Positions 2,605-3,720 of a DNA stretch of 64,000 nt are shown piece after piece (positions within the stretch are counted from its first letter, which is position 1; each line of letters opens with the position of its first letter). The notes beneath the pieces were generated by a model. The model did no database searches and was not told the DNA's origin. It saw only the letters and a list, made by a program, of their open reading frames with translations. Source of the stretch: Halomonas campaniensis (lineage in GTDB: Bacteria > Pseudomonadota > Gammaproteobacteria > Pseudomonadales > Halomonadaceae). The stretch lies in the NCBI RefSeq assembly GCF_014193375.1, contig NZ_JACHZF010000004.1, positions 57,360-121,359 on the forward strand, in the 5' to 3' direction. Made by a program: the position numbers and the translations under genes.

Positions 2605-3720
2605 TCATGAAGTCTGTCGTTCCAGTGGCTCCAGGTGCCCCGCCCCGTCACTCGAACGTTTCACGTGAAACACCGAGATCGGCGTATCGGGTTGCCACAG
2701 ATCTGCCAGGGCATCGTGGTCGACGCTGGTGATGAACACCTGGCAGTGCATGCTTTCCAGCCAGTGACAGAACACGCGTCGATGTGCGCTGTCCAGCTCC
2801 GCCGGGAGATCATCGATCAGGTAGATGCAGGTACGTCCGGTGATGGCCTCCAGAAGTCGCCCCTGGGCCAGCTTGAGGGCGCTGACCACGAGCTTCTGCT
2901 GGCCGCGGGAGAGCACTTCCACCGCGGGTCGCCGATCGAGTCGTATCGCGAGGTCCGCCCGCTGGGGCCCCTGCTGGGTAAACCCCATCTGCCTGTCGGT
3001 CTCCCTCCCCTGGCGCAGGATCTCGGCGAGATCACGGCGCTTGTCCCAGCCGCGCGAGTAGCGCAGCCGCAGCCCGCTGATCGGCAGCAGGCCATCCAGC
3101 GTCTCCTCGAAGACCGGAAGGAAGGCCTCGACCCAGGCGCTGCGCAGGGCATCGATCCGCTCGCTCCACTGCACCAGCTCCTGCTCCCAGGCCGACAGGG
3201 AAGCATCGTCCATTCTACCATGCCTGAGCAGGGCATTCCGATGTTTCAGTGCCCGCCGGGCACGCTGCCAGGCGTCGAGAAAGTCGTGTTTCACGTGAAA
3301 CACACCCCAGTCGAGAAACTCGCGCCGACCGGCCGGCGCCCCCTCCAGGAGGCGAAAGGCATCGGGGTTGATCAACTGCAGGGGGAGGGTCTCGACCAGG
3401 CGGGTGACACGGGTGATACGCTCGCCGGCCAGCCGCATCTCGAGTTCGCTCTCGCTGCGCAGGCGGCGCACGCCGAAGGGCACCGGGGGTTCACCGGCCA
3501 GGCGACCGTGAAGCACCAGGCCATCGCCGTCATGGGCAATGACATGGCGCATGTTGCGGGTGCGGAACGAACGGCCCATGCCGAGGATATGGATGCCTTC
3601 CAGCAGGCTGGTCTTGCCGCTGCCGTTGGCGCCACTGATCAGGTTGATCCGGGATCCCGGTTCAAAATCAATGGCTTGCAGATTCCTCAGGCCCTGGAAG
3701 ACGAGACGATCTAGAGGCAT
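2605..3720 (-). CDS. recF: DNA replication and repair protein RecF
   Basis: SMC-like ATPase that helps load RecA onto gapped DNA (RecFOR pathway). The Walker A motif GANGSGKTS is at residues 30-38, an ABC-type signature LSRGQQK lies near 280 and a Walker [12 protein letters not shown] near 310. The start ATG at 3720 ([14 protein letters not shown]) fits the family; a GTG at 3726 is also possible. It sits between dnaN and gyrB. Two parS sites are written into the gene, each encoding the peptide VFHVK: one after FLDWG mid-protein, one near the C-terminus. Their codons are therefore under double selection. Confidence 0.96.
2657..2672. other. parS: parS centromere site 2 (inside recF)
   Basis: CGTTTCACGTGAAACA differs from the parS consensus only at the first outer base. 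It lies in the last 25 codons of recF and encodes VFHVK in the recF frame. Confidence 0.9.
3287..3302. other. parS: parS centromere site 3 (inside recF)
   Basis: A perfect copy of TGTTTCACGTGAAACA inside recF. It encodes VFHVKH directly after the conserved RecF stretch FLDWG. It lies 630 bp from site 2 and about 3.1 kb from site 1, so the three sites form a compact ParB-loading cluster. Confidence 0.95.

Follow-up and report, generated by a model that had tools for sequence, protein, structure and literature searches.

The window, as we call the whole 64,000-nucleotide stretch of Halomonas campaniensis DNA analyzed here, carries the genes dnaN, recF, and gyrB together with three matches to parS, the sequence bound by the centromere-binding protein ParB. 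Two of these matches lie within recF, and the third is located beside gyrB (Table 1). A parB gene encoding the cognate protein is present in the same window at ∼29.5 kb. The top-scoring model for its product is the nucleoid occlusion protein TIGR04285 (230 bits, under the model cut-off of 315).

Table 1. Genes and parS sites of the window, with supporting matches or codon reading
Feature	Position	Strand	Description
Third parS	152..167		Perfect; 3' of gyrB
gyrB	173..2608	-	Downstream of recF; TIGR01059 and NF011501, both above cut-offs
recF	2605..3726	-	TIGR00611, 345 bits, above the cut-off of 172
parS site B	2657..2672		One mismatch; recF codons 352-357, GTG TTT CAC GTG AAA CGT = VFHVKR, near the C-terminus
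parS site A	3287..3302		Perfect palindrome; recF codons 142-147, GTG TTT CAC GTG AAA CAC = VFHVKH, after FLDWG
dnaN	3762..4865	-	Open reading frame upstream of recF; named from sequence and gene order, not family search
parA-like ATPase gene	28685..29461	+	Best model NF041546 ParA_partition, 117 bits, cut-off 180; directly upstream of parB
parB (centromere-binding protein)	29499..30419	+	TIGR00180, 200 bits, cut-off 58

A pattern scan of the whole window found TGTTTCACGTGAAACA without mismatches at site A and at the third site, and CGTTTCACGTGAAACA at site B, where the single mismatch falls on the outermost base. Measured against the 16-bp palindrome that defines chromosomal parS, TGTTYCACGTGRAACA, the sites thus have 0, 0, and 1 mismatches. 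When up to three mismatches are tolerated, the window holds three matches, compared with 0.04 expected from shuffled sequences. Sites A and B are 630 bp apart. The initial annotation had described two parS sites in recF that both encode VFHVK, as well as a third, perfect site, and the scan and the codon reading bear out each of these statements.

In the genome as a whole (3.93 Mb in 77 contigs), five parS sequences are present at two or fewer mismatches. All five are confined to 4.3 kb of one contig (C4:56402-60661), and none was detected beyond this cluster at that threshold. The two sites not already mentioned lie just to the left of the window, between glyS-like and gmhB-like genes that were named by eye. 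The sites are therefore few in number and all adjacent to dnaN-dnaA, the genes from which nearness to oriC was judged. The cluster also contains an assembly gap, represented by a run of 93 N bases, that is flanked by tandem 7-bp arrays: GCTTGGC repeated 20 times (window positions 3-145) and, to the left, AAGCTGC repeated eight times (G000:C4:57140-57196).

That parS1 and parS2 of Pseudomonas aeruginosa reside in recF is known. The available sections of two reports place parS near the origin of this species in recF (PMC5521831, PMC3909081), and those of a third give the sequences as TGTTCCACGTGGAACC for parS1 and TGTTCCACGTGGAACA for parS2 (PMC4368675). The recF gene of P. aeruginosa PA7 carries both sequences at the columns that align with sites A and B of the window, and the window pair is therefore orthologous to parS1 and parS2. 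The two pairs occupy the same gene and the same codons and belong to the same palindrome class, but the window sites have TTT..AAA (FHVK) whereas those of P. aeruginosa have TTC..GAA (FHVE). The arrangements also differ at the scale of the genome, with five parS in 4.3 kb here and, by the part of the report available to us, ten putative sites around the P. aeruginosa chromosome (PMC4368675).

Functional data for the P. aeruginosa sites come from the portions of several papers that we could consult. Any single one of parS1-4 is reported to be necessary and sufficient for partition, and mutants of parS1 and parS2 that preserve the coding sequence no longer gave ParB silencing when assayed on a plasmid (both PMC4368675). 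ParB binding in the cell has been reported by ChIP-seq (PMC10419367). For strain PAO1, nine of the 10 parS are said most likely to be in coding sequences (PMC4368675), and another paper of the same group calls parS3 and parS4 intergenic (PMC5521831; both statements as given in partial text). The window pair shares its location inside a coding gene with intragenic parS of bacterial chromosomes generally. The recF pair differs in that its place and frame are kept across the sampled families and in that a residue pattern is present in the protein.

Within the genus, both cores (that of site B being TTYCACGTGRAA) are found in all 36 recF genes recovered, including the gene in the window. The FHV[EK] residues are spelled as parS in 36 of 36 RecF proteins at each site, compared with 1.8 (A) and 1.9 (B) expected from the codon usage of the genes themselves. 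We then considered 149 RecF proteins from 20 order-level genomes and 129 genomes of the class set, with most family codes represented by one or two proteins; a second copy of one genome, L109 (the same as L036), had been dropped. FHV[EK] is present at A in 124 of 149 proteins and at B in 124 of the 146 that align there. The parS spelling is used in 120 of these 124 at either site, against own-gene expectations of 7.9 and 8.4, respectively. Both sites are occupied in 107 of the 149 genes, A alone in 13, B alone in 13, and neither in 16. Together these genes contain 240 cores, all in frame (120 at A and 120 at B), and no off-register copies beyond A and B. The class set comprises 274 genomes. 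RecF was found in 224 of them, and recF DNA was taken from the best 130 of the 224 by score (30 loci and 100 regions), so divergent RecF proteins are under-sampled in these counts.

A set of 80 named loci, the best 80 of 446 and mostly Pseudomonas, has both cores in 64 cases, B alone in seven, and neither in nine. Among the 12 named loci that we took for Halomonadaceae, eight have a third core 2.5-2.6 kb beyond site B. Outside the class, cores and FHV at A are both absent from all 29 RecF sequences examined, which were hand-picked from 107 matched genomes for different family codes. F.V is common at B in this outgroup, and two members have FHVE there but no parS core.

Nine same-genus stretches (L063-L071) were inspected for layout. 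Six have five cores, consisting of A, B, one 3' of gyrB, and two located 0.2-1 kb further; the other three have four, six, and three cores. TTT..AAA (FHVK) predominates in the genus, whereas TTC..GAA (FHVE) is the commonest form in the order and class sets. One genus genome (L028) shows the symmetric double change to TTC..GAA at site B, which as a single case would fit selection for the palindrome. Four further genus genomes have asymmetric changes at B, three of them TTC..AAA and one TTT..GAA.

The difference in the predominant spelling could be taken to mean that the pair is a local feature gained recently by the genus, but this is almost certainly wrong, since 107 of the 149 order and class genes carry parS at both codon positions, with no copies out of register.

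To control for shared descent, the columns of recF were compared with one another. The sample of 184 RecF sequences took a single sequence from each genome and drew on the class set, the order to which G308 belongs, and five additional genomes; sequences from other draws at the phylum, family, and order levels were excluded. Among the 94 columns in which one residue occurs in at least 65% of sequences, the six most codon-fixed are the H, V, and E of sites A and B. Their codon fixation is 0.86-0.98, whereas the best other column reaches 0.76 and the median is 0.35. The F codon of both sites is mixed, and its third base is left free by parS. Within the genus, a single codon is used in only 12 of 207 conserved RecF columns. 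Eight of these columns fall within sites A and B; the remaining four lie in a second element (residues 162-171). Chance or codon bias as the source of the recF sites was tried as an explanation and is ruled out by the shuffles, by own-gene codon usage, and by the conserved-column control.

The F codon covaries with the E/K choice when relatedness is ignored (Fisher's test, 3.6e-6 at A and 5.5e-6 at B). After pairing, the covariation is only suggestive, with nonsignificant median p values of 0.25 (A) and 0.07 (B).

The initial annotation also proposed that RecF is under protein and centromere selection at once. Codon fixation exceeds both the expectation from codon usage and the values of all other conserved columns in the class set, and the sites are identical with P. 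aeruginosa parS1/parS2. On these sequence comparisons, selection of both kinds on recF is well supported.

Genes that have lost a site help to separate the two kinds of constraint. Of the 61 RecF sequences that lack a core at A, 57 retain F and 58 retain H or Y (37 of them H), but just eight retain V. All nine of the named loci that lack both cores have FH, and in none of them does V follow it. In the 44 sequences without a core at B, V, I, or L is present in 39 and H in 15. Because of what is retained after core loss, F-[HY] at A and F-x-[VIL] at B look to be kept by the protein, and because of what drifts, V-[EK] at A and H at B look to be kept by the centromere. An earlier suggestion that site A was fitted onto an existing motif therefore stands in part: F and H/Y usually remain after site loss within the class, but V and E/K mostly do not, and FHV at A is absent from all 29 outgroup sequences.

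Loss by synonymous change was also sought among close relatives, since free loss would speak against selection on the DNA. It occurs in none of the 36 genus genes, but A has been lost in this way in six of the 80 named loci, all of them Pseudomonas. In these six, GTG is changed to GTC at A, in some with additional synonymous changes, while B is kept and FHVEP is intact. Site A is therefore not essential in those Pseudomonas, single sites are dispensable in places, and the encoded residues remain for some time after the site is gone. The RecF of Salinicola salarius, which is 72% identical to that of the window, has neither site.

Retention of F and H/Y at A, together with the intact FHVEP of the six Pseudomonas, is what would be expected if FHV[EK] were kept for RecF function and the parS spelling were neutral. 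The predicted fold lends some weight to this idea, since a RecF structure model places A at the end of helix 131-145 and in the turn after it, and B in strand 350-357. However, a neutral spelling does not account for parS codons in 120 of 124 sequences at each site where ∼8 are expected, for A and B columns that stand above every other conserved column, or for V in only eight of 61 sequences once the site is gone. Nor does it account for parS in the dnaN-gyrB gap of genomes that have no recF. On these four grounds, we reject constraint by the protein alone, which we regard as very unlikely.

The genomes without recF were defined as those with no TIGR00611 match at E 1e-30, and 30 were identified by subtraction. 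We examined 22 of the 24 that have a site, leaving out those with five and 12 sites. In 19 of the 22, one or two copies of parS lie between dnaN and gyrB, and the ends of the dnaN and gyrB matches are 49-877 bp apart in these 19 genomes. The product of the window dnaN served as the DnaN query for these matches. The three other genomes have parS in the mnmG-rsmG region (L409), beside gyrB with dnaN not in view (L423), and on a stretch with no marker gene (L422). One recF-less genome (G139) has an extra parS outside the dnaN-gyrB gap. These bacteria thus use the same interval for parS but have no host gene for it. Paired sites in the gap start 26-106 bp apart in 11 of 12 pairs and 722 bp apart in one (L408; all from L402-L421), so that most are compact relative to the ∼630 bp of the recF form. 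The two forms could be compared for ParB loading. A candidate recF remnant around the parS of L407 was dropped, since the likeness stems from the dnaN stop region.

Whole-genome counts, which were made with exact 14-mers alone and exclude weaker sites, show how strongly the copies concentrate in recF. Two copies of the exact 14-mer are present in 164 of the 274 class genomes. For 131 genomes (the 130 with class-set recF DNA and G064), 208 of 266 exact copies of GTTYCACGTGRAAC are within recF. Of the 121 genomes with any exact parS, 88 have every copy in recF and five have none there. Exact 14-mers are unusually numerous in two of the 274 genomes, G174 (12 copies) and G328 (eight copies).

Co-occurrence with ParB was examined as well. 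At least one recF core is present in 146 of 168 ParB-positive genomes and none in 22, so that site loss in the presence of ParB is common, and cores are present in three of 16 genomes lacking ParB, which are drafts that are 77, 81, and 95% complete. These raw counts agree with a link between ParB and the cores. However, ParB changes just seven times on the tree, and the genomes concerned are nearly complete for three of these changes; a comparison of independent pairs was not significant. Because the independent losses are too few, our case does not rest on them.

The best explanation for these results is that the 16-mers in recF are working parS sites of the chromosomal ParABS system, orthologous to P. 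aeruginosa parS1/parS2, and that they set residues of RecF. We consider this very probable for the window, and we infer ParB binding and a role in segregation here by analogy with the characterized sites. ParB would load on the recF sites and then spread across the origin region, and ParA would move the ParB-coated origins apart. The centromere of Gammaproteobacteria would be located between dnaN and gyrB. As recF fills this interval, parS is spelled in recF codons, mostly as [MVL]-F-H-V-[EK]-[HQPR]. In this way, some of the RecF sequence appears to be determined by the centromere, with selection at the DNA level presumably dictating chiefly the V and E/K of site A and the H of site B.

A broader proposal, which we hold to be likely although with less assurance, is that the main gammaproteobacterial centromere is a fixed parS pair between dnaN and gyrB that goes back to the base of the class and has outlived recF. 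The FHV[EK] motifs of RecF in the class would then be for the most part an imprint of ParB recognition, and a shift of the palindrome arms from TTC..GAA to TTT..AAA would force E to K. We infer that the pair may be this old, and that genomes without recF may have kept their sites instead of regaining them.

It is also conceivable that the 16-mers act not in partition but in some other function of the dnaN-recF-gyrB operon at the level of DNA or RNA, for example in regulating gyrB. In P. aeruginosa, gyrB mRNA falls when ParB is in excess (PMC5521831, in the part available), and recF does contain a separate codon-embedded element that resembles a promoter. However, the sequence is that of a ParB site, and the same P. 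aeruginosa sites serve segregation according to the accessible portion of one report (PMC4368675). In the sections of the other paper that we could consult, expression of the genes next to intragenic parS1 and parS2 does not rise when ParB or parS is missing (PMC5521831). A role other than partition is accordingly very unlikely, and parS function in chromosome segregation is the reading we retain.

The literature on parS in recF that we covered consists of P. aeruginosa papers, available in part; the parS survey published in 2007 by Livny and coworkers lies outside this scope and may bear on the question. Within the text searched, we found no account of position conservation across the class, of parS in the dnaN-gyrB gap of genomes without recF, or of a residue footprint in RecF. 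The scale of conservation, the sites in genomes without recF, and the proposed footprint therefore appear to be new, at least to us. In Caulobacter, a hot spot for parS insertion includes recF and gyrB (PMC5815017, partial text), and hence the region suits parS elsewhere too.

If the proposed explanation is true, then recF provides a clear natural case of a chromosome-segregation signal setting amino acids of a widely conserved protein, and a conserved protein motif need not imply protein function. The data suggest that recF, or the gap between dnaN and gyrB, is a simple place to seek the centromere in many Gammaproteobacteria. Caution would also be warranted with recF mutants, since deletion or recoding of the gene can remove parS and thereby blur repair with segregation phenotypes.

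The second codon-embedded element in recF has the sequence TG[GA]TAGAAT and is located at window positions 3212-3220 on the reverse strand, in codons 169-172. A scan for the sigma-70 consensus gave no report at this position. The element nevertheless resembles an extended -10 promoter pointing to gyrB and is possibly a gyrB promoter within recF. It is present in all 36 recF genes of the genus, where R171 is always AGA, and the codons for H162 (CAT) and R163 (CGG) upstream of it are also invariant. A like form occurs in register in 11 of the 27 order and class RecF sequences that are ungapped there.
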